From: Rubrivivax sp.
GTDB lineage: Bacteria; Pseudomonadota; Gammaproteobacteria; Burkholderiales; Burkholderiaceae_C
Length of the DNA stretch: 40,138 bases
NCBI GenBank assembly: GCA_016788525.1
Contig: JAEUPD010000057.1
Coordinates: forward strand, 1 to 40,138
Direction of reading: 5' to 3'
Position numbers and translations under genes: made by a program. Shown piece after piece: positions 25,379 through 36,919 of this stretch. The stretch's first letter is position 1. Each line of letters begins with the position of its first letter. Below the pieces are notes generated by a model that was not told where the DNA came from, searched no databases, and saw only the letters and a list, made by a program, of their open reading frames with translations.

Positions 25379-27001
25379 ATGCGCCAGCTGAGCGCCCACG
25401 ATGCGTCGTTCCTCTACGCCGACACGCGGCACGCGAACGCCAACGTCACGCTGATCCACATCTACGACCAGCGCACGGCGCCGGGCGGCAAGGTGCGCTT
25501 CAAGAGCATCCTGCAACGCATCGAAAGCCGCATCGCGCAGCTGCCGCTGTTCCGCCAGAAGCTGCACCGCGTGCCGCTGGACCTGGACCATCCGTACTGG
25601 GTGGATGACGAGGAGTTCGACCTCGAGTACCACGTGCGGCACATCGCGCTGCCCAAGCCGGGTGACTGGCGGCAGTTCTGCATCCAGGCCTCGCGCATCC
25701 ACGCCCGGCCGCTGGACCTCTCGCGGCCGCTGTGGGAGATCCACGTCATCGAGGGGCTCGACGGCCTGCTCGACCTGCCCGAGGGCACCTTCGCCCTGCT
25801 GACCAAGACGCACCACGCCGCCATCGACGTGGAAGGCGGCAGCGAGATCACCTCGTTGCTGCACGACCTGACCGCCACCCCCCCGGTGCCGGCGCCACCG
25901 CCGCCGTGGTTCCCCGAGGCGCCACCGGGCCTGGCCCGGGTGCTGGTGCGCGGGGTGGCCCACACGGTGGCCGCGCCGGTCACGGTGGCCGGGCCGGTGG
26001 GCCGCGCGTGGCAGGCCGCCGGGCCTGCGGCGGCGGAGTTCTTCGGTGACCTGTGCAAGCCCCGGCACGCGCTGCCCGTGACACGCTTCAATGCCATCGT
26101 CTCGCCGCACCGCGTGTTCGAGACGCGCCGCTTCATGCTCGACGAGCTGAAGGCCATCCGCGCGCTGGTGCCCGACGCCACGGTCAACGATGCCGTGCTG
26201 GCGGTGTGCGGCGGGGCGCTCAGGCGGTACCTGCAAGGGCACGGCGAGCTGCCGCGCGAGAGCCTCAGCGCGATGGCGCCGTTCTATGTGCGCTGCAGCG
26301 ACGAGGCATCGCAGGCGTTGTCGTGGACGCGCGTGGACCTGGGCACCCATCTCGCCGATGCCAGGCAGCGCCTGGCGCACATCCAGGCCCAGACCTCCTC
26401 CAGCGAGGTCATTCATCGCGCCGTGGGAGCGCGCGAGCTCGTGGAGGCCGGCCATCACGTGCCGGCAGCCACGCTGGCGCTGGCCGGCAAGTGGCTGGGG
26501 GCGTGGTCGGGGGCCGGCGGGCTGGCCGGCATCAACGGGCTCGCCAGCCTGAAGCGCCGCGCGCCGCCGGCGCACTGCACCATCACCAGCGTGCCCGGGC
26601 CGCAGGAGCCGCTGTACCTGTGCGGCGCACGGATGACCTACTTCTCGGCCATCATGCCCATCAGCGACGGCAACGGCCTGGTCTTCGCCGTCACCAGCTA
26701 CGACGGGCGCCTCATCATCTCGCCCACATCGTGCCGCGAGCTGATGCCCGACCCGGCGGTGTTCGCGCAGTGCGTGCGCGACAGCTTCCAGGAGCTGCTG
26801 GCGCTGGCTCGCGAGCCGGTGGTCGCCGCCGGGCCGGAGTCGTCGAAGCCCCGGGGCAAACCGCGCCCGCAATCACGGCCCCAGCACCAGCCCCAGCCGG
26901 CGGCCACGCCGAAGGCGCCCGCGCCGCGCCGCCGCGCTACACCGGCACGGCGTCGTGCGTCGCCAGCCGGTAGGCGCTCCCCCACCAGCCCTGTGGGCTG
27001 A
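25379..27001 (+). CDS. Wax ester synthase / diacylglycerol acyltransferase (WS/DGAT)
   Basis: The enzyme esterifies fatty acyl-CoA with long-chain alcohol or diacylglycerol to make wax esters or triacylglycerol at the membrane. The 540-residue protein has the family start RQLSAHDASFLYADT, PLDLSRPLWEIHVIEGL at 111-127, and the catalytic motif HHAAIDV at 145-151. The canonical last residue of HHxxxDG is Gly; here it is Val, followed by EGG. PDATVNDAVLAVCGGALRRY and the SVPGPQEPLYLCGARM region are also conserved. The last 60 or so residues are a Pro/Arg/Lys/Ala tail. ATG 25379 follows AAAGG by about 9 bases. The 3' end overlaps the converging hydrolase gene by 65 bases. Confidence 0.93.
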   Translation: MRQLSAHDASFLYADTRHANANVTLIHIYDQRTAPGGKVRFKSILQRIESRIAQLPLFRQKLHRVPLDLDHPYWVDDEEFDLEYHVRHIALPKPGDWRQFCIQASRIHARPLDLSRPLWEIHVIEGLDGLLDLPEGTFALLTKTHHAAIDVEGGSEITSLLHDLTATPPVPAPPPPWFPEAPPGLARVLVRGVAHTVAAPVTVAGPVGRAWQAAGPAAAEFFGDLCKPRHALPVTRFNAIVSPHRVFETRRFMLDELKAIRALVPDATVNDAVLAVCGGALRRYLQGHGELPRESLSAMAPFYVRCSDEASQALSWTRVDLGTHLADARQRLAHIQAQTSSSEVIHRAVGARELVEAGHHVPAATLALAGKWLGAWSGAGGLAGINGLASLKRRAPPAHCTITSVPGPQEPLYLCGARMTYFSAIMPISDGNGLVFAVTSYDGRLIISPTSCRELMPDPAVFAQCVRDSFQELLALAREPVVAAGPESSKPRGKPRPQSRPQHQPQPAATPKAPAPRRRATPARRRASPAGRRSPTSPVG

Positions 27002-27782
27002 ACGGCTTCCACGCGCCTTCGGGCTGCGCCAGGCGGTCGGCGACGATTGCCATCACCATCGCGTTGAAGCCCAGGCCCGTGTGGCTGCCCTGCACGCGGA
27101 TGTTCTCGTGCAGCCCGGGGTCGCCGTGGATGGTGGCTTCCTGCGGCGGCACCACGCCGTCGGAAAGCGAGTACAGGCAGCTCATCGGCACGGGCAGCGC
27201 GTGGCGCTCGCGCAGCTTCTTGGCCTTGGGCTGCATCACGTGCACGTCGGGGCCCATCGGGTGGGCGATGAGGCGGTACAGCGCCTTCACGAGGGCCGGG
27301 CTCCTGCTGCCGCCTTCGTCGACGCTGACCGGGCTGCCCAGCGTGATGACGGTGCGCACGCACTCGCCCGCCTGGTGTGCGCCGTAGAGGGCGAACACGC
27401 CGCCCAGGCTCCAGCCCACGAGGCTGACCTTGCGGCCGTGTGTGTGGTGCAGGTGGCGGATCTTCTGCTCCAGCGCCTGCGCGTGCTGGCTGCGAAAACC
27501 CACGTTGCGCCCGAAGCCCCAGGTCTGCACGAGATAGCCGCGGCTGGCGAGAAACCACTTCAGCGGCGCCAGCGTCGCCTCGTCGGCCATGAACCCGGGC
27601 AGAAGCAGCACGGGGTGGCCGTCGCCCTTGGGCGCCATCTGCAGCGCGGGCACGGTCCACGGCAGCACGGCCATCTCGAGCAGCGCGCGCCATTCGGTGA
27701 GCTGGTGCAGCAGGTGGGGTTCGCCTTCGTGGGCGTGGCGGCGGGCCATAGGGGCGCGAAGGGTTGCGATGACGCGGATCAT
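26937..27782 (-). CDS. Alpha/beta hydrolase, lipase-like
   Basis: The 281-residue protein has an alpha/beta-hydrolase core. HPVLLLPGFMADEATL carries the oxyanion loop, VSLVGWSLGGVFALYGA has the nucleophile-elbow Ser, CLYSLSDGVVPPQEA likely carries the acid Asp, and GSHTGLGFNAM has the catalytic His. It resembles lipase/esterase and PHA-related hydrolases, with the substrate undetermined. Facing a WS/DGAT gene, a role in ester turnover is plausible. Two starts are possible: 27782 (MIRVIATLRA) and 27749 (MARRHAHEGE). A promoter-like pair lies at 27812-27840. Its last 65 bases are antisense to the WS/DGAT tail codons. Confidence 0.87.
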   Translation of the reverse strand: MIRVIATLRAPMARRHAHEGEPHLLHQLTEWRALLEMAVLPWTVPALQMAPKGDGHPVLLLPGFMADEATLAPLKWFLASRGYLVQTWGFGRNVGFRSQHAQALEQKIRHLHHTHGRKVSLVGWSLGGVFALYGAHQAGECVRTVITLGSPVSVDEGGSRSPALVKALYRLIAHPMGPDVHVMQPKAKKLRERHALPVPMSCLYSLSDGVVPPQEATIHGDPGLHENIRVQGSHTGLGFNAMVMAIVADRLAQPEGAWKPFSPQGWWGSAYRLATHDAVPV

Positions 27783-27840: not shown

Positions 27841-27929
27841 CGCTGGGTTGGAGGGTGGGGCCGCTTCGCGCGGCATGACTCGGCAGTGCGACCGCAGCTC
27901 TTCCTGGTGGCGGTCGGCCCCAGCGGCGC

Positions 27930-28040
27930 GCCAAGGCCACCGGGGGATCGGTTCCGCTCATGTCCTTTTCCGAGTGCCCTGCTGCGCAGGTCACTCGAAT
28001 GCATCCTGACTTCGCTGAACCGATCCCCGGCGGCCTTGGC
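27930..28040 (-). repeat. Cruciform repeat unit A (type 2) of the composite element
   Basis: The outer arms 27930-27954 (starting GCCAAGGCCACCGGG) and 28017-28040 pair almost fully, with one substitution and one extra G. The central hairpin 27971-27997 is CGAGTGCCCTGC, loop TGC, GCAGGTCACTCG: a 12-bp stem with one mismatch at the seventh pair. Between arm and hairpin lie the conserved CTCATGTCCTTTTC and AATGCATCC. With unit B and the 49-bp linker it forms the inverted counterpart of the C-D pair at 34665-34942. The remaining intergenic sequence 27841-27929 shows no gene. Confidence 0.85.
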
Positions 28041-28089
28041 GGATACGCCCGTCTGAGTCCGAGCGCTCGTACGCCGAAGCGCGTGCCGG

Positions 28090-28202
28090 ATCGGGCCGAC
28101 GGGGTGCCCAGCGCAGTGAAGTAAGGGGTGCGTCCGAGTGACCAGCGAAGCTGGGCACTCGGAAGAGGACATGAACGGAGCTGGGCACCCCGTCGGCCCG
28201 AT
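28090..28202 (-). repeat. Cruciform repeat unit B (type 1) of the composite element
   Basis: The outer arms 28090-28112 (ATCGGGCCGACGGGG then TGCCCAGC) and 28180-28202 are perfectly complementary over 23 bp. The central hairpin 28135-28161 is CGAGTGACCAGC, loop GAA, GCTGGGCACTCG, again with the single mismatch at pair seven. Flanking motifs GAAGTAAGGGGTGCG and GGAAGAGGACATGA match the reverse complement of unit C. The element lies between ligB and the hydrolase gene and encodes no protein that I can recognise. Confidence 0.85.
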
Positions 28203-28250
28203 TCCGCGCCGACTTTCGAAGTGCACGACTTCCGACCGACCGATCCCTGT

Positions 28251-28271
28251 GGGCTCGCGACCCGCGAACCC
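28251..28271 (-). terminator. Hairpin downstream of ligB, possible terminator
   Basis: The hairpin GGGCTCGCG, loop ACC, CGCGAACCC (plus strand) forms nine pairs including one G-T, 13 bases after the ligB stop codon. There is no T-run on either side, so if it ends transcription it is not a classical intrinsic terminator. Confidence 0.35.
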
Positions 28272-28284
28272 GCGCCCGCCAAGA

Positions 28285-29142
28285 TCAGGCCGGCTCGAGC
28301 AAGAGCAGCCCCGAGGCCGTGTTCGAGATCGGGATGTGGTAGTTCTGGTGCGTGCGCCGCACCTTGGCCACGCCGGCCCCCTCGAGCGCGCCGCGTGCCG
28401 CCAGCCACATCACCAGCTCCACGCCCTGCGTGCCGGTCTTCTCGACGAGCTCGTGGATGCTGTAGCGCGTGGCCCAGCGCGGCTCGTGCACAAGGCTTTC
28501 CAGGAACTGCAAGTCGAAGTCCTTGTTGATGAAGCCGGCACGCTGGCCGTCGAGCTGGTGCGACAGGCCGCCGGTGCCCATGACGAGCACGCGCTCATCG
28601 CCAGGCCACGACGCCAGAGCTTCACCCACCGCCCGGCCGAGCGCGTAGCAGCGCGCCGCGCTGGCCAGCGGATACTGCACCGTGTTGATGTGGATGGGCA
28701 GCAGCTTGATGCCCCGGTCCTGCCAGTCGCGGCCGGGCCACAGCAGCGTCATCGGCACGGTCACGGCGTGATCGACCAGCATCTCCTGGCAGGTGGTGAG
28801 GTCGAAGTCGCAGCCGACGAGGTGCTCGACGACATGCCACGACAGCGGCGCGTGCCCCGTGAACGAGGGTACCGTGGGGATGCCCCAGCCCTCGTCGGCG
28901 CTGCCGTAACCGGCCGCCGCGCCCACCGCGAAGGTGGGCATCTTGTCGAGGAAGAAGTTCAGGCCGTGGTCGTTGTAGAAGACCACCACGACGCCCGGGC
29001 GCGCGTCCTGCAGCCAGCGGTGCACGGGGCCGAAGCCGTCGAAGAACGGTTTCCAGTACGGGTCGGTGTGCAGGCTCCTGGCGATCGCGCCGCCGATGGC
29101 CGGCACATGCGAGGTGGTAAGGCTGCCGAGGATGCGGGCCAT
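28285..29142 (-). CDS. ligB: Class III extradiol dioxygenase beta subunit, LigB type
   Basis: The catalytic subunit of a protocatechuate 4,5-dioxygenase-like enzyme uses Fe(II) to cleave a catecholic ring beside the hydroxyls. The 285-residue protein has iron ligands His12 in LTTSHVPAIG and His59 in FYNDHGLNFF, the catalytic His in VMGTGGLSHQLDG, and a likely Glu ligand in the C-terminal ELVEKTGTQGVELVMW region. PTVPSFTGHAPLSWHVVEHL is also typical. The substrate could be protocatechuate, gallate or a relative; sequence alone does not decide. It lies 95 bases downstream of ligA. The start at 29142 matches the family N-terminus exactly. Confidence 0.92.
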   Translation of the reverse strand: MARILGSLTTSHVPAIGGAIARSLHTDPYWKPFFDGFGPVHRWLQDARPGVVVVFYNDHGLNFFLDKMPTFAVGAAAGYGSADEGWGIPTVPSFTGHAPLSWHVVEHLVGCDFDLTTCQEMLVDHAVTVPMTLLWPGRDWQDRGIKLLPIHINTVQYPLASAARCYALGRAVGEALASWPGDERVLVMGTGGLSHQLDGQRAGFINKDFDLQFLESLVHEPRWATRYSIHELVEKTGTQGVELVMWLAARGALEGAGVAKVRRTHQNYHIPISNTASGLLLLEPA

Positions 29143-29237
29143 GCGGGGTGCTCCGGGGTCGGGTTGGGTCGGGCCGGCGGGTCGTGTCGATGCGGGGCGG
29201 ATGCAGGGCCGGGCGGGCGGTGGCCGGCGTACCGTGC

Positions 29238-29576
29238 TCAGGCCTGCGCCAGGAGCCGCGCCTTGAACTCCTCCTTGCTCAGGCCGGTCTGGGCGGCGCC
29301 CAGGTCCTGCACGTCCAGCCCGAGGATGCCGGCGAACTTGGCCAGGTAGTAGACGTTGCCGCCGGCGGCGAGCAGACCGAGCACGTTGCGCTGCGCGATC
29401 GCCTCGCACTGCTCGGCGTTCAGGCCGTAGCGCGCGCAGTAGGCGGCCTCGTCGTGGCGGAAGGCCTCGCGGTTCTCGGCCGAGTTGAACGAGAAGCACA
29501 TCTTGTTCAGCGCGTAGCCCTTCATGGCCTGCCGGCCGTCGAAGACGGTGGTGCCGGGGATCTCGGGCATGGTCAT
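29238..29576 (-). CDS. ligA: Class III extradiol dioxygenase alpha subunit, LigA type
   Basis: This small helical subunit caps the LigB active site in protocatechuate 4,5-dioxygenases. The 112-residue protein shows MKGYALNKMCFSFNSAENRE, FRHDEAAYCARYGL, and IAQRNVLGLLAAGGNVYYLA with KFAGILGLDVQDLGAAQTG following, all family signatures. ATG at 29576 (reading MTMPEI) is preceded by GGAG; a second ATG lies two codons in. It is the promoter-proximal gene of ligAB and diverges from a LysR gene 72 bases away, which is a common arrangement for a catabolic operon and its regulator. Confidence 0.93.
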   Translation of the reverse strand: MTMPEIPGTTVFDGRQAMKGYALNKMCFSFNSAENREAFRHDEAAYCARYGLNAEQCEAIAQRNVLGLLAAGGNVYYLAKFAGILGLDVQDLGAAQTGLSKEEFKARLLAQA

Positions 29577-29648
29577 GGCGTCGTGCTCCGCAGGAAGGGC
29601 GGCCGCAGTGTGGCAAAGTGGCGCGGCGCGATGAAGGGGTCGATACTC

Positions 29649-30647
29649 ATGCCACGCATGAGCGGCATCGATCGATCCCACCGCGCCGACCCGCTCGACC
29701 TCGACGGCCACCTGCTCGCGCTGCTGGTCGCGGTGGCCGAGGAAGGGTCGGTCACGCGGGCGGCCGAGCGCCTGCAGGTCACGCAGTCGGCAGTCAGCCA
29801 CGGCCTGACGCGGCTGCGCCGCATCACGTGCGACGAGCTGTTCGTCAAGAGCGGCCGCGGCATCGCGCCCACGCCGCTGGCGGGCGAGCTCGCCGCCCGC
29901 GCGCGGCGCCTGCTCGATGAGCTCGGCGCCTTCGGGCGCAGCGCCAGGTTCGATCCGGCGCGCTTCGTGCAGACCCTCACCATCGCGGCCAACGATCTGC
30001 AGCGCGACCTGCTGCTGCCGCCGCTGCTGCGCCGCCTGCGCGCTGCCGCGCCGGGCGTCACGCTGCGCATCGTGCCTTCCGATGCGCCGCAGCCGGCGCT
30101 GCTGCGCGACGAAGGCTGCCACCTCGCCATCACGCCGCGGCCGCCGCAGGGCGGTGACTTCGTGCAAAAGCGCCTGTTCGAAGACCGCTACGTCGTCTTC
30201 TTCGATGCCGCCCACGGCCGCGCGCCCGGCACCCGCGAAGCCTGGCTCGCCGCCGAGCACGTGAGCGTGCAGTACGAGTCGCGGCGCGGCCTGGACTTCG
30301 ACGAGTGGCTGCTGGCCGAGGGCGTGCAGCGCCAGGTGGTGGCCACGGTGCCGGGCATGGCAGCGCTGGCCGCACTGGTGCGTGGTGGAAGGTGGCTGGC
30401 CACCGCGCCATCGCTGTTGGCCCGGGCCTCCCTGCGCGGCCTGGGCGTCGCCGAGCTGCCGTTCACGGCGCCGCCGTTGCGCATGTACGGTGTGTGGCAC
30501 GCGCGCCACCACGATGACCCTGCGATGCGCTGGCTGCGCGACCAGCTCGACCGGGTGGTCGCCGAAGTGCGGGCCGGTGCGCCCGCCTCGGCGGGGCCGC
30601 CGCCTATGGCGCCGCGCGGTCGCCGGCCTCGTACTGGCTCGGCGTGA
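29649..30647 (+). CDS. LysR-family transcriptional regulator divergent from ligAB
   Basis: This 332-residue regulator has a winged HTH in the first 75 residues (LLVAVAEEGSVTRAAERLQV, then TQSAVSHGLTRLR). The effector-binding domain has TLTIAANDLQRDLLLPPLLR, DEGCHLAITPRPPQGGDF and YVVFFDAAHG. It resembles NodD/NahR-like LysR proteins. It probably controls ligAB, its divergent neighbour, with an aromatic acid as inducer; this is inference from position. Starts at 29631, 29649 and 29658 are possible; 29649 follows AAGGGG by 9 bases. Its 3' end overlaps the converging HicA-like gene by 44 bases. The last 25 residues are Pro/Arg/Ala-rich. Confidence 0.88.
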   Translation: MPRMSGIDRSHRADPLDLDGHLLALLVAVAEEGSVTRAAERLQVTQSAVSHGLTRLRRITCDELFVKSGRGIAPTPLAGELAARARRLLDELGAFGRSARFDPARFVQTLTIAANDLQRDLLLPPLLRRLRAAAPGVTLRIVPSDAPQPALLRDEGCHLAITPRPPQGGDFVQKRLFEDRYVVFFDAAHGRAPGTREAWLAAEHVSVQYESRRGLDFDEWLLAEGVQRQVVATVPGMAALAALVRGGRWLATAPSLLARASLRGLGVAELPFTAPPLRMYGVWHARHHDDPAMRWLRDQLDRVVAEVRAGAPASAGPPPMAPRGRRPRTGSA

Positions 30648-30894
30648 CGCCGGCGCGGGCGAGGAACTCGCGCAGGTGCAGCAGGCCCTGCTTGTCCATC
30701 GTGTTGTTGTGGTGGTGGGGGCGGTGCACGATGGTCTCGGCGCGCCCCAGCGTGGCGCGGATGCGCGCCCCCGACAGCGATTCGAGCTCGGCGCCCACGT
30801 GCTTGAGCAACGACTCGGCGTCGCGCCAGTGCAGGTTGTGCGTCGGCGGGTCCTGGAAGATCGCGCGGATCAGCTTGGCGTGGTGGCTGCTCAT
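30604..30894 (-). CDS. HicA-like protein, no HicB partner
   Basis: This 96-residue protein begins SSHHAKLIRAIFQDPPTHNL and has HWRDAESLLKHVGAELE, ARIRATLGRAETIVHRPH and LLHLREFLARAGVTPSQYE. This matches a HicA-related family often found as HxxxTLxAIF...I.W.DVE.LL...GA proteins. Canonical HicA toxins are double-stranded-RNA-binding-fold mRNA interferases with a His in GSHHxF; here the equivalent segment is not obvious, and a His cluster (HRPHHHNNT) lies further on. No HicB gene follows: downstream is the 3' end of the LysR gene, overlapping by 44 bases, and upstream is a YgiD-type gene. The toxin role is therefore doubtful. Confidence 0.7.
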   Translation of the reverse strand: MSSHHAKLIRAIFQDPPTHNLHWRDAESLLKHVGAELESLSGARIRATLGRAETIVHRPHHHNNTMDKQGLLHLREFLARAGVTPSQYEAGDRAAP

Positions 30895-30980
30895 GGCGCG
30901 CAAGATTACGCCCATGCAGCCGCGCGCGGCTTGACTTCAGGCAGGCGGCGGCGCAGTCGGGGGCTGCCCGCGCTGCGCCG

Positions 30981-31841
30981 TCATCCGGCCTGCAGCGCGG
31001 CGGCCAGACGGGGCGCGCCAGCACCGAAGGCGTAGGCGTCCATGCCAAGGTCGCCATAGGTCAGGCTGGCGTGCAGGCGCGTGGCCGGTGCCGCCCGCCC
31101 GCCGGCGCCGGCGGCCACGTACCACGGCAGCAGGTGCTCGTCGGTGGGGTGCATCAGCTCGGCGTGCGGGGCCTGGCGGCGGTAGTCGAACAGGCGCTCC
31201 CAGGCGGCCTCGGCGCCACGCTGGCTGAACCATTCGCGAAACGCCGTGCTCTCGGGGGTGGCCGGGCGCTCGACGTCGCGCTGGCCGCCGGCGAACACGC
31301 GGCGCAGGTTGTGCGTGATGCTGCCGCTGGCGACGACAAGCACGCCCTCGGCGGCCAGTGGGGCCAGCGCCTCGCCGAGCGCGAACAGCTGGGCCGGTGA
31401 CCAGTCGGGCGGCCAGGCCAGCGGCAGCACCGGCAGGTCGGCGTCTGGAAACACGTAGCGCAGCGGGGTCCAGATGCCGTGGTCCAGGCCGCCTTCGTCC
31501 ACCACATGCGCCGGCAGCCCGGCGTGGCGCAGCAGCTGCGCCACGCGCTGCGCGAGCTCGGGGGCCCCTGGGGCGTCGTAGCGCAACGTGTACAGCTTCG
31601 GGTCGAAGCCACCGAAGTCGTACACCGCGGCGTGGCGCGGCGCCGCCAGCAGCACCGGCTCGCGCGTCAGGCTGTGGGCCGAGACGGCGACGATGGCGCG
31701 TGGGCGGGCGAACTCGCGTGCCAGCACCGGGCCGAGCCGCTGCATGAAGGCGCCGGCCTCACGCGGCTCCAGCGCCGTCATCGGCGAGCCGTGGCTGATG
31801 AACAGGGGCGGCAAGGTCGCCGCTGGGTTCGTGGAACTCAT
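30981..31841 (-). CDS. YgiD/DODA-type class III extradiol ring-cleavage dioxygenase
   Basis: This 286-residue protein is of the 4,5-DOPA dioxygenase-extradiol family, which cleaves catechols using a metal centre. Conserved His residues are visible: His17 in LFISHGSPM, His56 in VAVSAHSLTR, His121 in GGLDHGIWTPLRYV, His177 in ASGSITHNLR and His231/His236 in MHPTDEHLLPW, close to the E. coli YgiD positions. The bacterial substrate is usually unknown. ATG at 31841 precedes the conserved PPLFISHGSP. It is unrelated in subgroup to LigB nearby, though both are class III. It diverges from the FtsX-type permease with a 166-base gap. Confidence 0.92.
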   Translation of the reverse strand: MSSTNPAATLPPLFISHGSPMTALEPREAGAFMQRLGPVLAREFARPRAIVAVSAHSLTREPVLLAAPRHAAVYDFGGFDPKLYTLRYDAPGAPELAQRVAQLLRHAGLPAHVVDEGGLDHGIWTPLRYVFPDADLPVLPLAWPPDWSPAQLFALGEALAPLAAEGVLVVASGSITHNLRRVFAGGQRDVERPATPESTAFREWFSQRGAEAAWERLFDYRRQAPHAELMHPTDEHLLPWYVAAGAGGRAAPATRLHASLTYGDLGMDAYAFGAGAPRLAAALQAG

Positions 31842-32007
31842 GCGTGCATTGGAGCATCGCCGGCCCGCCCGACCGTGCAAGGCGCTCGCACGCGGCATTC
31901 ATGCCGCTCGATCGGCCTGTCGTCCAACGCGCCCCGCAGGGCCATGGGAATTCGGCTACCGTGCAGGCGCACCCCTCGCAGGCGCCTTTGCGCCAACCTG
32001 GCCTGGC

Positions 32008-34632
32008 ATGAACGCTCCATCCGCCGACTCGACGCCCGCCGCCGCGGCCACCGCCCCGGGCGCGGCCGCGCCCCGCCTCGCGCCGCCGGGCTTGGCCTCG
32101 CTCGCCTGGCGCCAGACGCTGCGCGACCTGCGTGCCGGCGAGCTGCGGTTGCTCGCCGTGGCCGTGGTGCTGGCGGTGGCGGCGCTCACCGCGGTGGGCT
32201 TCTTCGCCGACCGGCTGGCCAGCGGCCTGAAGCGCGACGCCCGCCAGCTGCTGGGCGGCGACGCCGTGGTGGCCAGCGACAAGCCCACGGCTGCGGAACT
32301 CGTAGCCAAGGCGGGCGCGCTGGGGCTCGCCGGTGCGCGCATGGTCGAATTCCCGAGCATGGGCCGCGCCAGCGACGCGCAAGGTGGCGCGACGCGCCTG
32401 GTGTCGGTGAAGGCGGTGAGCCCCGGCTACCCGCTGCGCGGCCGGTTGCAGGTGCGCGACACGCCGGCGGCGCCTGTGCAGGTCACCGGCGACACGCCCG
32501 CGCCTGGCACGGTATGGGTGGATGCCGCCTTGCTGGACGCGCTGGCGCTGAAGCCCGGCGACTCGCTGCTTCTGGGCGACGCGGCCCTGAAGATCGCGCG
32601 GCTCATCGTCGTCGAGCCCGACCGCGGCGCCGGCTTCATGGTGTTCGCGCCGCGGGTGCTGATGGCCGAGGCCGACCTGCCAGCCACCGGGCTCATCCAG
32701 CCGGCCAGCCGCGTCACCTATCGCTTCGCCGTGGCCGCGCCTGGCGGGAGCTCGTTTCGTGGCGCGCAGGGCGACGAGGCCGTGCGCGAATTCGTGCAGC
32801 ACGCCGAGGAGCGCATCAAGACCGTGCCACTGCGCGGCACGCGGGTCGATTCGTTCTCCGGCGGCCGGCCCGAGATGCGCCAGACGCTGGACCGCGCCGA
32901 GCGCTTCCTGAACCTCGTGGCGCTGCTGGCGGCGCTGCTGGCCGCGGTGGCGGTGGGCATCGCCGCGCGCGATTTCGCGCAGCGCCACCTGGACGACTGC
33001 GCGATGCTGCGCGTGCTGGGGCTGGCGCAGCGGCGCATCGCGGGCGCCTACGCGATGGAGTTCGGGCTGGTGGGCCTGGTCGCCAGCGCGGTGGGTGTGG
33101 CGATGGGGTTCGCGGTGCATTTCGTCTTCGTGCTGCTGCTGGCCGGGCTGCTCGACGCGCAACTGCCGCCGGCCAGCGTGTGGCCGGCGCTGTTCGGCCT
33201 GGGTGTGGGGCTCACGCTGCTGGTGGCCTTCGGCCTGCCGCCGGTGCTGCAGCTGGCGCGCGTGCCGCCGCTGCGCGTGATCCGCCGCGATGTCGGCGGG
33301 CTCAAGGCCAGCTCGGCGCTGGTGCTGGCGGCCGGCACCGCGGGGTTCGTGGCGCTGCTCATGGCGGTGTCGGCCGACACCAAGCTCGGGCTCATCGCGG
33401 TGGGCGGCTTCGCCGGCGCGGTGGCACTCTTTGCGCTGCTCGGCTGGCTGTCGGTGAAGGTGCTGCAGCGCGCGGTGCCCGAGGCGCGCGCGCCGCGATG
33501 GCTGGTGCTGGCCACGCGCCAGGTGGCCGCGCGCCCGGCGTTCGCGGTGCTGCAGATCTCGGCGCTGGCGGTGGGCCTGCTGGCCCTGGTGCTGCTGGTG
33601 CTCTTGCGCACCGACCTCATCGCCAGCTGGCGCAAGGCGACGCCGCCCGATGCGCCCAACCGCTTCGTCATCAACGTGCAGCCCGAGCAGGGCGAGGCCT
33701 TCCGCCGCATGCTCGAAGAAGCCGGCGTCAAGCGCTACGACTGGTACCCGATGATCCGCGGCCGGCTGGTGGCCATCAACGAGCGCAACGTCACCGCGGC
33801 CGACTACGCCGACGAGCGCACCGCGCGCCTGGTGGAACGCGAGTTCAATCTCAGCCACAGCGAGGCGCTGCCGCCGCACAACCCGGTGAGTGCCGGGCGG
33901 TGGGTGGCCGGCGAGCCCGGCACGGTTTCCGTAGAGGAGGGCCTGGCGCAGACCTTCCAGCTGAAGCTGGGCGATACGCTCACCTTCGACATCGCCGGCC
34001 AGCGCGTGAGCACGCGCATCACCAGCCTGCGCAAGGTGGACTGGGGGTCGTTCCGCGTCAACTTCTTCGTCATCTACCCGGTGCGCGAGATGCCGGGGCT
34101 GCCGGTGAGCTACATCAGCGCGTTCCGCGCGCCGGCCGTGGCCGGCTTCGACAACGCGCTGACACGCGCCTTCCCGAACATCACCAACGTCGATGTGTCG
34201 GCCAGCATCTCGCAGGTGCAGCGCGTGCTCGACCAGGTCATCCGCGCCATCGAGTTCCTGTTCGGCTTCACGCTGGCGGCGGGGTTGGTGGTGCTGTTCG
34301 CCGCCGTCACTGCCACGCGCGAGGCGCGTGCGCGCGAGTTCGCGGTGATGCGTGCGATGGGCGCCGGTGCGCGGTTGCTCAAGCAGGTGCAACGCGCCGA
34401 GCTGCTGGGCGTGGGCGCGCTGGCCGGCACGCTGGCCTCGCTGGCGGCGCTGGTGGTTGGCTGGCTGCTGGCGAAGTACGCCTTCGAGTTCAGCTGGACG
34501 CCGGTGCCGTGGGTGCCGCTGGCCGGCGCCGCGGCCGGTGCCGTGCTGGCGCTGGCGGCGGGGTGGTGGGGGCTGCGCGAGGTGCTCAGGCGCCCGGTGC
34601 TGGAGACGCTGCGCCGCGCGGGCGCCGTGTAG
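32008..34632 (+). CDS. FtsX-type ABC transporter permease (YbbP-like)
   Basis: The 874-residue inner-membrane protein has the double FtsX architecture. A first helix (about 48-66) precedes a large periplasmic domain (about 67-290), then helices around 305-340, 355-400 and 405-450. A second core block follows with helices from about 505-530, a periplasmic domain, and three C-terminal helices (VQRVLDQVIRAIEFLFGFTL onward; REFAVMRAMGAGARLLKQVQ is the coupling-type segment). It resembles E. coli YbbP, which works with ATPase YbbA in envelope lipid or lipoprotein handling. No ATPase gene lies in the window. Start 32008 is the first ATG with the family N-terminus. Confidence 0.9.
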   Translation: MNAPSADSTPAAAATAPGAAAPRLAPPGLASLAWRQTLRDLRAGELRLLAVAVVLAVAALTAVGFFADRLASGLKRDARQLLGGDAVVASDKPTAAELVAKAGALGLAGARMVEFPSMGRASDAQGGATRLVSVKAVSPGYPLRGRLQVRDTPAAPVQVTGDTPAPGTVWVDAALLDALALKPGDSLLLGDAALKIARLIVVEPDRGAGFMVFAPRVLMAEADLPATGLIQPASRVTYRFAVAAPGGSSFRGAQGDEAVREFVQHAEERIKTVPLRGTRVDSFSGGRPEMRQTLDRAERFLNLVALLAALLAAVAVGIAARDFAQRHLDDCAMLRVLGLAQRRIAGAYAMEFGLVGLVASAVGVAMGFAVHFVFVLLLAGLLDAQLPPASVWPALFGLGVGLTLLVAFGLPPVLQLARVPPLRVIRRDVGGLKASSALVLAAGTAGFVALLMAVSADTKLGLIAVGGFAGAVALFALLGWLSVKVLQRAVPEARAPRWLVLATRQVAARPAFAVLQISALAVGLLALVLLVLLRTDLIASWRKATPPDAPNRFVINVQPEQGEAFRRMLEEAGVKRYDWYPMIRGRLVAINERNVTAADYADERTARLVEREFNLSHSEALPPHNPVSAGRWVAGEPGTVSVEEGLAQTFQLKLGDTLTFDIAGQRVSTRITSLRKVDWGSFRVNFFVIYPVREMPGLPVSYISAFRAPAVAGFDNALTRAFPNITNVDVSASISQVQRVLDQVIRAIEFLFGFTLAAGLVVLFAAVTATREARAREFAVMRAMGAGARLLKQVQRAELLGVGALAGTLASLAALVVGWLLAKYAFEFSWTPVPWVPLAGAAAGAVLALAAGWWGLREVLRRPVLETLRRAGAV

Positions 34633-34664
34633 TGGTGTCGTCGTACTCCGCTGGAGGGCGGCGG

Positions 34665-34779
34665 GATCGGGCCGACGGGGTGCCCTGCACTGCTCATGTC
34701 CTTTTTCGAGTGCCCAGTCTTGCTGGTCACTCGAATGCATCCTTTACTTCGCTGTGCAGGGCTCCCCGTCGGCCCGATC
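34665..34779 (+). repeat. Cruciform repeat unit C (type 1) of the composite element
   Basis: The outer arms 34665-34690 (GATCGGGCCGACGGGG then TGCCCTGCAC) and 34754-34779 pair at 25 of 26 positions. The central hairpin 34707-34733 is CGAGTGCCCAGT, loop CTT, GCTGGTCACTCG. Its reverse complement aligns along its length with unit B. It starts 32 bases after the permease stop codon, in the gap between convergent genes. The sequence between it and the permease gene shows nothing else. Confidence 0.85.
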
Positions 34780-34829
34780 CGGCACGCGCTGCGGTGTACG
34801 AGCGCACGGCGACCGCAGCGGTTCGGCCC

Positions 34830-34942
34830 GCCAGGGCCGCCGGGTGGCCGGCTCAGCGAGGCAAAGGGCGCATTCGAGTGCCCTGCGCAGCAGGGCAGTC
34901 GAAAGTGGACACGAGCAGAGCCGACCACCCGGCGGCCTTGGC
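34830..34942 (+). repeat. Cruciform repeat unit D (type 2) of the composite element
   Basis: The outer arms 34830-34854 (GCCAGGGCCGCCGGG then TGGCCGGCTC) and 34918-34942 pair at 23 of 25 positions. The central hairpin 34875-34901 is CGAGTGCCCTGC, loop GCA, GCAGGGCAGTCG, with an extra mismatch in the outer stem. It corresponds to the reverse complement of unit A. The 50-bp linker between C and D (34780-34829, with CGGCACGCGCT and GTACGAGCGC) matches the A-B linker in inverted orientation. Bases 34920-34950 recur exactly at 6700-6730. Confidence 0.85.
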
Positions 34943-35032
34943 GCGCCACCACCTCTCGGCCCGCACTGGGCAGCGAAGCCCTGCGCGTCAGAGAGTTGCT
35001 GTTCGCGTTCCTCGAACGGCAGTCGTGCGTCT

Positions 35033-35062
35033 CAAGTTGATCCGGCTGCGCCGGGCAACTTG
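35033..35062. terminator. Hairpin between convergent permease and MCP genes
   Basis: CAAGTTG (35033-35039) pairs with CAACTTG (35056-35062). Inside, CCGGC pairs with GCCGG around a TGC loop, with a small internal bulge. It lies 45 bases beyond the MCP stop codon, between two convergent genes, so it could slow or end transcription from both sides. No T-run follows on either strand. Confidence 0.35.
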
Positions 35063-35107
35063 AATACCCGCGGGGGGCGGGCCGAGCTGGCCCGGCCCTG
35101 AGGGCAC

Positions 35108-36919
35108 TCAGAACTCGAGCCAGTCGTCGGCCGCTGCGCCCGCGGCCGTGGCGGCTGCAGCTGACGCGGCGGTTGCCACGGCCGGTGCTGGGGCTGCGGC
35201 CTTGGGCGGCGATGTCGCTGGCGCGGCCGCGGCGGTGCGCGCAGCGGGTGCGGCAGTGGCCGCCGCCCGGGCGCGTTGCACCACGGCCGCGGCCGCCGGC
35301 GCCGCCGGCCCGCCGGCGCGCGGCGATGCGGCCACTGCGGTGGCAGGGGCGCTTGGTGCGACACCGGGCTTGTCGCTGCCGGCGCCCGGTTCGGCGACCT
35401 GGAAGCGGGCCGTCACGTCGGCCAGCCGGCGCGCCTGCTGCTCCAGCGAGTCGGCGGCCATGGCGTTGGCCTGCACGAGGTTGGAGTCCTGCCGCGTGGC
35501 ATCTTCCAGCCGCGTGACCGCGGTGTTCACCTCGTGGATGCCGCGGCTTTGCTCGGCCGCGGCGGCGCTGATCTCGCCGATGATCCGGCTCACCTGCTGC
35601 ACGGCGGCCACGATCTCGTCCATCGTGCGGCCGGCGTCGGACACCAGCCGGGCGCCGGCGTCCACGCGTTCCACACTGGCGCCGATGAGCGACTTGATCT
35701 CGCGCGCGGCCGTGGCCGAGCGCTGGGCCAGCGAGCGCACTTCACCGGCCACCACGGCGAAGCCGCGGCCCTGCTCGCCGGCCCGCGCCGCCTCCACCGC
35801 CGCGTTCAGCGCGAGGATGTTGGTCTGGAACGCGATGCCGTCGATGGTGCCGATGATGTCGCCGATGCGGCGTGAGCTGGTGTTGATGCTGTCCATCGTC
35901 GAGACCACCTCGGCCACCACGCGCCCACCGCGCTCGGCCACCTGGGCGGCGCCGGCGGCCAGGCGGTCGGCCTGCTGCGCCGAGTCGGCGGTCACGCTGA
36001 CGGTCTGCGACAGCTGCGCCATCGAGCTGGCGGTCTGCTCCAGCGCACCGGCGTTGTCCAGCGTACGCTGGCTGAGGTGGCCCGTGCCCGCGGCGATCTG
36101 GCTGGAGGCGCTGGCGATGCTGTGCGAGGCGCTGCGCACGGTCTGCAGCGACTCGTTGAGCTGCTGCACCATGCGGTCGAGCGCGCGCGAGAGGTCGCCC
36201 AGCTCGTCTTCGCGGCGGCTGTTGGCGCGCGCCTGCAGGTCGCCTTCGGCCACGCGCTGGCTCAAGTCCACCGCCTCGGACAGGCTGCGCACGATGCGCC
36301 GCTGCATGCGCCAGGTGGCCCACAGGCTGGCGCCGGCTGTCAGCCCCAGCAGCAGCGCCAGCACGGCGGTGTTGCGGCGGTGCTCGGCCTGCATCGCGTT
36401 GGCGCGTGCCTGGGCGCGGCCGTCGATCAGCCCGGCCAGCGCGACCAGTTCCTTGTCCAGCGCCGCGTAGCTGTGCTCGGCCGCCTTCATGGCGCCCAGG
36501 CCGACGTTGGGGTCCATCGTCGACAGGTCGATCGCCTTGTCGGCTTGCCGGCGGTACTGCTCGATCAGCTTCAGCGCGGCGGCGTGGTGCACACCGGCCT
36601 GCCCGTCGAGCTGGGAGCCGTCGACTTTCAGGCGCGCGGCGGCGGCGCCGGACTGGCGCTCGATGTCGGCGCGCACCGCCTTCACGGCCGGCTCGTCGAG
36701 CGAGCTCATGATGGCCAGCGTGCGGTACACGGTGGCGCGCACCTGCATCAGTTGCTCGCGCCCGGCGGCCATCTGCCGCGACTGCGCGGCGTTGTCGCCG
36801 GCCACCTGCGCGGCCTGGTCCAGGCCGGCGACACCCAGCCAGGCGAGGCCGCCAGTGGCCAGCAGCGCGACCCCGGCCACGACCAGTGGCGGGATCAGCA
36901 ACTTGATGCCGATCTTCAT
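35108..36919 (-). CDS. Methyl-accepting chemotaxis protein with CheR-tether pentapeptide
   Basis: This 603-residue chemoreceptor has TM1 at 6-27, a periplasmic four-helix-type sensor (about 30-182), TM2 at 184-204, HAMP at about 205-258, and a long cytoplasmic coiled coil. The hairpin tip that binds CheA/CheW is at about 354-395 ([20 protein letters not shown], then [17 protein letters not shown]). After about residue 500 comes an Ala/Pro-rich tether of about 95 residues ending in DDWLEF, which fits the xWxxF motif that docks CheR or CheB. It lies 55 bases downstream of the Cache gene, in the chemotaxis cluster. The ligand is unknown. Confidence 0.94.

Follow-up and report, generated by a model that had tools for sequence, protein, structure and literature searches.

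Two inverted intergenic loci of Rubrivivax sp. as probable copies of a dispersed, non-coding DNA repeat of paired covarying hairpins

What kind of element lies twice, in opposite orientation, between the genes of Rubrivivax sp. contig JAEUPD010000057.1? The window, i.e. the whole stretch of 40,138 nt that was analysed, carries two related elements of ~285 bp, each built from two large hairpins, and a first-pass annotation of the sequence had put forward three explanations, namely structured RNA, a MITE- or REP-like mobile repeat, and a site of chromosome structure. The coordinates, arms and covarying arm examples given in it agreed with the window sequence. Both loci are probably copies of a non-coding, dispersed and non-autonomous mobile DNA repeat. 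The copies are dispersed, cluster by species and, at the two sites tested, are missing from near relatives, and it is from these three observations that we infer movement. The element is best read as an interspersed palindromic repeat that is REPIN-like and much larger. The parts of the two copies are as follows.

27925-28211, opposite strand to copy 2: copy 1, whole element, ~285 bp
27925..28044, + strand: copy 1 left-type hairpin (unit A), covariance model R1 match of 111.7 bits, E 5.6e-20, fold z −7.1
27960..28015, + strand: conserved core of unit A (ATGTCC, inner hairpin, CTTCGC), from sequence reading and hairpin alignment
28045..28085, no strand: copy 1 linker, the gap between model matches
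28086..28211, − strand: copy 1 right-type hairpin (unit B), R1 match of 134.2 bits, E 1.6e-24, fold z −11.3
34657-34950, opposite strand to copy 1: copy 2, whole element, ~285 bp
34657..34782, + strand: copy 2 right-type hairpin (unit C), R1 match of 136.2 bits, E 6.3e-25, core at 34696-34752
34783..34828, no strand: copy 2 linker, the gap between model matches
34829..34950, − strand: copy 2 left-type hairpin (unit D), R1 match of 113.0 bits, E 3.0e-20, fold z −7.8

Copies 1 and 2 matched each other on opposite strands with 81% identity (E 1.7e-67). The covariance model R1 was built on 41 own-genome hairpins, the four window units included. It found exactly the four proposed hairpins in the window at E <= 1e-8, accompanied at the same places by weaker opposite-strand readings. 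Each element consists of a left-type hairpin, a linker of ~42 bp and a right-type hairpin. The two cores within one copy are mutually inverted and face each other (in copy 1, A forward and B reverse), and the counterparts between copies are A with D and B with C. In each hairpin of ~120 nt (range 110-130 nt), an outer stem of ~24 pairs leads to a conserved asymmetric internal loop and an inner hairpin of 12 pairs. The internal loop, with ATGTCC on the 5' side and CTTCGC on the 3' side, is mostly unpaired and encloses the inner hairpin. Outside the stems, the invariant columns were mostly those of this loop, while the outer stem and inner hairpin were variable, giving the shared core formula ATGTCC - variable hairpin - CTTTACTTCGC. 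Pairing of the arms was strong; the measured values of 88-94% (ungapped) were slightly under the 92-100% first claimed. On either strand, each of the four units gave a better fold than its dinucleotide shuffles (z −7.1 to −11.3), and 0 of 200 shuffles equalled it in any of the eight folds. A terminal inverted repeat of ~7 bp (GGTGGCG/CGCCACC) was seen in many copies.

The prediction of many further copies was borne out in the host genome, a metagenome-assembled genome (MAG) of 4.43 Mb and 73% completeness. At E <= 1.7e-13 the covariance model detected 70 distinct hairpins, which form 23 +/− pairs (46 hairpins), one ++ pair and 22 singles, with a pair spacing of 36-49 nt. Thus 23 of the 24 adjacent pairs were inverted doublets of the REPIN type, and many of the single hairpins lay near contig ends. 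A blastn search of the same genome gave 84 matches, each strand of a copy being counted apart. The core pattern was present in 33 stretches, all 33 of them in four Rubrivivax MAGs. Within the genus, 44 of 81 genomes had a model match at E <= 1e-4; best matches of 4e-21 to 5e-26 were restricted to seven genomes, and the next best was 1e-15. The full +/− pair was found in 37 of 40 loci, picked from hit lists, from four other Rubrivivax genomes (G011, G071, G082, and G088; G and L denote our genome and locus handles).

Three other Rubrivivax genomes (G026, G017, and G085) showed 33-39 weaker model matches each. The only G026 locus read, L053, had a facing pair in which a version of the same core carries different loop letters. 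At the end of a contig, L025 (G000:C109:5554-5970) had three consecutive hairpins, the second of which joins a 5' arm of right type to a 3' arm of left type and has outer arms that no longer match. In the right flank of L034, the sequence just beyond the right hairpin was repeated in tandem in steps of ~38 bp.

Covariation beyond chance, which had also been predicted, was evident in the 41 own hairpins. Standard pairs made up 96.9% of pair cells compared with 78.5% after shuffling, and there were 309 double-change cells compared with 109, a value reached in 0 of 500 shuffles. The 21 left-type hairpins alone gave 64 double-change cells against 19 shuffled (0/500), so the covariation is not merely the difference between left and right types. 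In this set further pair types, one of five measures, were reached in 11 of 500 shuffles.

Covarying stems are commonly read as a sign of structured RNA, and RNA hairpins tolerate G.U. We next consider the reading of the element as a structured non-coding or cis-regulatory RNA family, whose conserved loop would bind a putative ligand or protein. The conserved unpaired loop and the freely covarying stems, in genera of several families, speak for it, as do the double-change cells. The wobble counts do not. Own-genome stems contained 19 G.U and 23 A.C among 1557 cells (G.U 1.2%), and the stems of four relatives, in core orientation, 18 G.U and 56 A.C among 3036 cells (80 of 83 rows, the three lowest, which were antisense readings, being dropped; stems from the covariance model alignment). 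The signal recognition particle (SRP) RNA of the same order, used as control, gave 151 G.U (15%) and one A.C among 1020 cells (30 of 58 matches; stems from RNAalifold on a MAFFT alignment). Wobble in the element stems was thus under 2% of cells on either strand, far under the SRP control, and the clear excess of G.U over A.C expected for an RNA under selection was not seen in the core orientation. Furthermore, both orientations occur in nearly every pair, the elements are placed beyond gene 3' ends, and the copies cluster by species like those of a mobile repeat. Nor does a known RNA family speak for it: a search of the window with Rfam 15 gave 0 matches above the gathering score. Four sub-gathering matches in the copy-1 stretch involved three microRNA families and a togavirus element, the best being MIR1858 (31.7 bits where the gathering score is 137, E 0.0013). 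The RNA explanation raised at first pass is accordingly highly improbable.

The covariation does not look like selection on RNA, and the structure seems to be kept at the DNA level. Either template switching at quasi-palindromes or movement of only those copies that pair well would produce the pattern with few wobbles. Hairpins more identical to their nearest own copy tended weakly to have more intact stems (41 non-independent hairpins, Spearman 0.36, p 0.02). A large covarying family in several genera thus fails a wobble test that a known hairpin RNA passes, and because its structure looks kept at the DNA level, this calls for caution in RNA-motif discovery.

The mobile-repeat reading relies on the distribution of copies between genomes. 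On a tree of 62 copies, drawn without the own copies L022 and L025 and with a bootstrap that had not settled, species labels changed 13 times compared with 37.7 times after shuffling (0/200 as low). The clustering was imperfect, with seven changes for the nine G082 rows and four G073 rows not clustered. At the L032 site, six element-rich relatives (G071, G072, G073, G082, G088, and G011) had gaps of 30-134 bp, compared with 395 bp in the host, which are too short to hold the element. Short gaps at this site were also present in other genomes, e.g. 26 bp in G025. Copy 2 was missing from the closest relative, G071 (gap of 53 bp compared with 474 bp). Same-locus copies were compared in five pairs. 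At the copy 1 locus, the host and G071 copies (L018/L184) differed by 26 one-sided and 0 two-sided stem changes, and the second close pair (L197/L154) by 14 one-sided and one two-sided change. These one-sided changes in the nearest pairs fit decay after landing.

As a possible partner, RAYT/Y1 transposases were tried and rejected. The core stood beside none of 44 Y1_Tnp loci (from 51 listed places; fetched flanks up to 1.5 kb), and no Y1_Tnp match was present in six high-copy genomes (G011, G071, G072, G073, G082, and G088). The own genome had one match, as did 10 of 15 genomes selected because they carry the element or core; a Y1 gene may play a distant role in genomes that have one. A long-gap copy in G071 (L158, 2182-4555, contig C195) was considered as an autonomous element and rejected, as it is an element split by other cargo. 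About 2 kb interrupts its right-type hairpin; by eye, this insert looks like the remnant of an IS3-like OrfB with small helix-turn-helix and PIN-domain genes.

Several observations weigh against a mobile repeat. When 541 neighbour proteins were clustered, inspection of the largest clusters by eye showed no transposase, and neither these clusters nor L158 provided an autonomous partner. A target-site duplication was not visible, the gaps at empty sites being too diverged to align. Some own copies, e.g. L019, L022, and L027, are alike for ~40-50 bp beyond the hairpins, so the element borders are not sharp. The copy 1 locus holds the element in G071 also, where ~1 kb of additional sequence, including a predicted gene, separates the element from the other flank; copy 1 may therefore be old. 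In the 62-copy tree, L018 and L184 fall within one small clade without being sisters, which makes their common descent likely and not certain. The A.C excess in the relatives (56 compared with 18 G.U) amounts to a G.U excess on the opposite strand. This would fit weak RNA selection on that strand and counts in favour of the RNA explanation. The excess sits in few columns, partly in G011, and is for this reason probably due to shared ancestry.

The three more distant same-locus pairs add a further difficulty. L030/L169, L180/L174, and L173/L163 each showed 11 two-sided stem changes, beside 24, 21, and 9 one-sided changes, respectively. The partners fell in different clades; both flanks matched only in L180/L174, and the other two pairs matched on one flank. 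This suggests replacement, gene conversion or re-insertion. Such different-clade copies at apparently the same loci would also suit a putative protein-binding or chromosome-organising site spread by gene conversion, and the conserved core and the pairs agree with it. BIMEs have been proposed as gyrase or IHF sites. Against this explanation, which we consider very unlikely, stand the patchy distribution in the genus (44/81 genomes at E <= 1e-4, below 1e-20 in seven) and the lack of a known binding partner.

Among the known systems closest to the mobile repeat proposed here are REPINs and REP-BIMEs. In PMC3116915, these are described as inverted doublets with compensatory changes, and singlets are treated as remnants. 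The present element likewise lies between genes and consists of two palindromic units, inverted and joined by a linker; it too occurs with singlets and shows compensatory changes and families within species, all features that these systems share (PMC3116915, PMC3733652). Its units of ~110-130 nt differ from the 20-40 bp of REP units given there (PMC3116915, PMC3733652). CGTC-tagged REPs, according to PMC3733652, are short single CGTC-tagged hairpins, mostly in inverted dimers, with no dedicated transposase known and with RAYT genes that are not flanked by the repeat. The present element resembles them in its mostly inverted dimers, in having no dedicated transposase known and in that the RAYT genes examined are not flanked by it, and differs in having no CGTC tag. 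By eye, neither a GTAG nor a CGTC tag was seen at the stem foot in the aligned ends. Unlike REPINs, the hairpins have a conserved asymmetric internal loop, and no RAYT lay beside the loci examined. The element is not a REPIN by definition, having neither the short tagged unit nor a repeat-flanked RAYT.

The likeness to other short repeats was more general. Miniature inverted-repeat transposable elements (MITEs) and ERIC/RUP-like repeats are non-coding, intergenic, strongly palindromic and ~100-300 bp long, and the present element agrees in all of these features. It differs in its two separate hairpins, in a terminal inverted repeat of only ~7 bp, and in that no target duplication or parent insertion sequence was found. 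The Rhizobium RIME has two large palindromes in one intergenic element, in other taxa and at smaller size; its two-palindrome layout, as described, resembles the present one. Among the matches listed from the mostly open literature, no description of the present element family was found.

For a repeat of this kind we propose that a putative trans-acting enzyme would recognise the two inverted loop cores in single-stranded or cruciform-extruded DNA. At the DNA level, stem pairing would be required or else restored through template switching; the arms would thereby change together almost without wobble states, and copies would decay at the landing site. More tentatively, an undescribed transposition or recombination system of Burkholderiales and relatives may use the element as its DNA substrate. 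Its putative enzyme, other than Y1/RAYT, would read the loop of the folded hairpin, leaving the stems free if paired, and would take two inverted hairpins at once. The precise conserved core offers a bait for the putative mover of the repeat family.

The core was also traced beyond the genus. The pattern ATGTCC-N16-44-CCTT(G/T)A(C/T)TTCGC matched 26 of 399 genomes of the order, compared with 4/399 for the reversed-pattern control. Two or more matches occurred in 10/399 genomes, from the host family (f1) and families f13 and f21. The minimum-energy fold lacked the hairpin in five of 24 folded loci, namely L299, L308, L310, and L313, which are from single-match genomes of other families, and L295, from family f1; single core matches are therefore partly due to chance. 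A stricter core pattern matched 3/369 genomes of the class with no control match, and two of these (G490 and G750) belong to one family outside the order. Among 20 loci from these other genomes, many of them chosen for having two listed hits, 13 had a +/− pair, one a ++ pair and six a single core. In Variovorax, both loci read had the +/− pair (2/2), on replicons of 1.24 and 1.19 Mb. A plasmid search with window copy 1 gave no match, and two related elements from other genera matched three large Variovorax replicons. No match was found among 50,697 phage records with one own copy (L032) as query; the stricter core pattern matched one viral contig, near the contig end.

The core lay near homologues of one gene in L300, L302, L303, and L305 (family f13) and in L318 (G129, family f1). 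By eye, this gene looks like chorismate synthase.

The two window copies lie between the following open reading frames (ORFs).

26937..27782, − strand: alpha/beta hydrolase-like ORF, 5' end facing copy 1, weakly matched in Pfam, the best hit (PF12697, E 2.5e-5) falling just short of its cut-off
28285..29616, − strand: ORF with a LigB-type ring-opening dioxygenase domain (PF02900, E 1.2e-57), 3' end facing copy 1
31588..34632, + strand: FtsX-like permease ORF (PF02687, E 2.8e-15), 3' end beside copy 2
35108..36919, − strand: methyl-accepting chemotaxis protein ORF (PF00015, E 7.4e-53), 3' end facing copy 2

The copy 1 gap is thus flanked by co-directional ORFs, with the dioxygenase upstream and the hydrolase-like ORF downstream, and the copy 2 gap by the convergent permease and chemotaxis-receptor ORFs. 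Genes were called with a home-made caller trained on Pfam-supported genes. Of 59 elements, 56 had a called gene on both sides, and their gaps were 32 convergent, 22 co-directional and 2 divergent. Of the 22 elements in co-directional gaps, 17 were closer to the upstream stop than to the downstream start. Divergent gaps made up 2/56 element gaps compared with 16/37 baseline gaps of >=150 bp. The intergenic baseline consisted of the window and 33 loci chosen for carrying the core, and this choice biases its convergent share low; depletion of divergent gaps is the safer statement than convergent enrichment. For a mobile repeat, such a bias towards gene 3' ends would reflect tolerance, or target choice, outside promoters and genes.

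The same placement is what a portable bidirectional transcription terminator, or a putative mRNA 3'-end protector, kept by host selection, would show. In that case each converging transcript would meet a core in the same orientation, with a GC-rich inner hairpin and then a pyrimidine-rich tail, and a tail of this type (CTCCTCCTTTACTT) followed the inner hairpin in many relatives. The convergent enrichment and divergent depletion agree with this proposal, as do the 17/22 co-directional copies nearer the upstream stop and the inverted layout, which gives both transcripts the same signal. The elements near homologues of one gene in four f13 genomes and G129 are likewise what a kept function predicts. 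However, the stems do not have the expected G.U tolerance (<2% on either strand compared with 15% in SRP RNA), the two closest same-locus pairs changed one-sidedly (26:0 and 14:1), and at the L032 gap the element is missing from all six element-rich relatives. A host-kept terminator or protector is hence unlikely. Incidental transcription termination or mRNA 3'-end protection by the mobile repeat is possible, and the stems appear not to be selected for either. A short inverted repeat, TCAAGTTGATCCGGCTGCGCCGGGCAACTTGA, was also observed at window positions 35032-35063, between copy 2 and the chemotaxis ORF.

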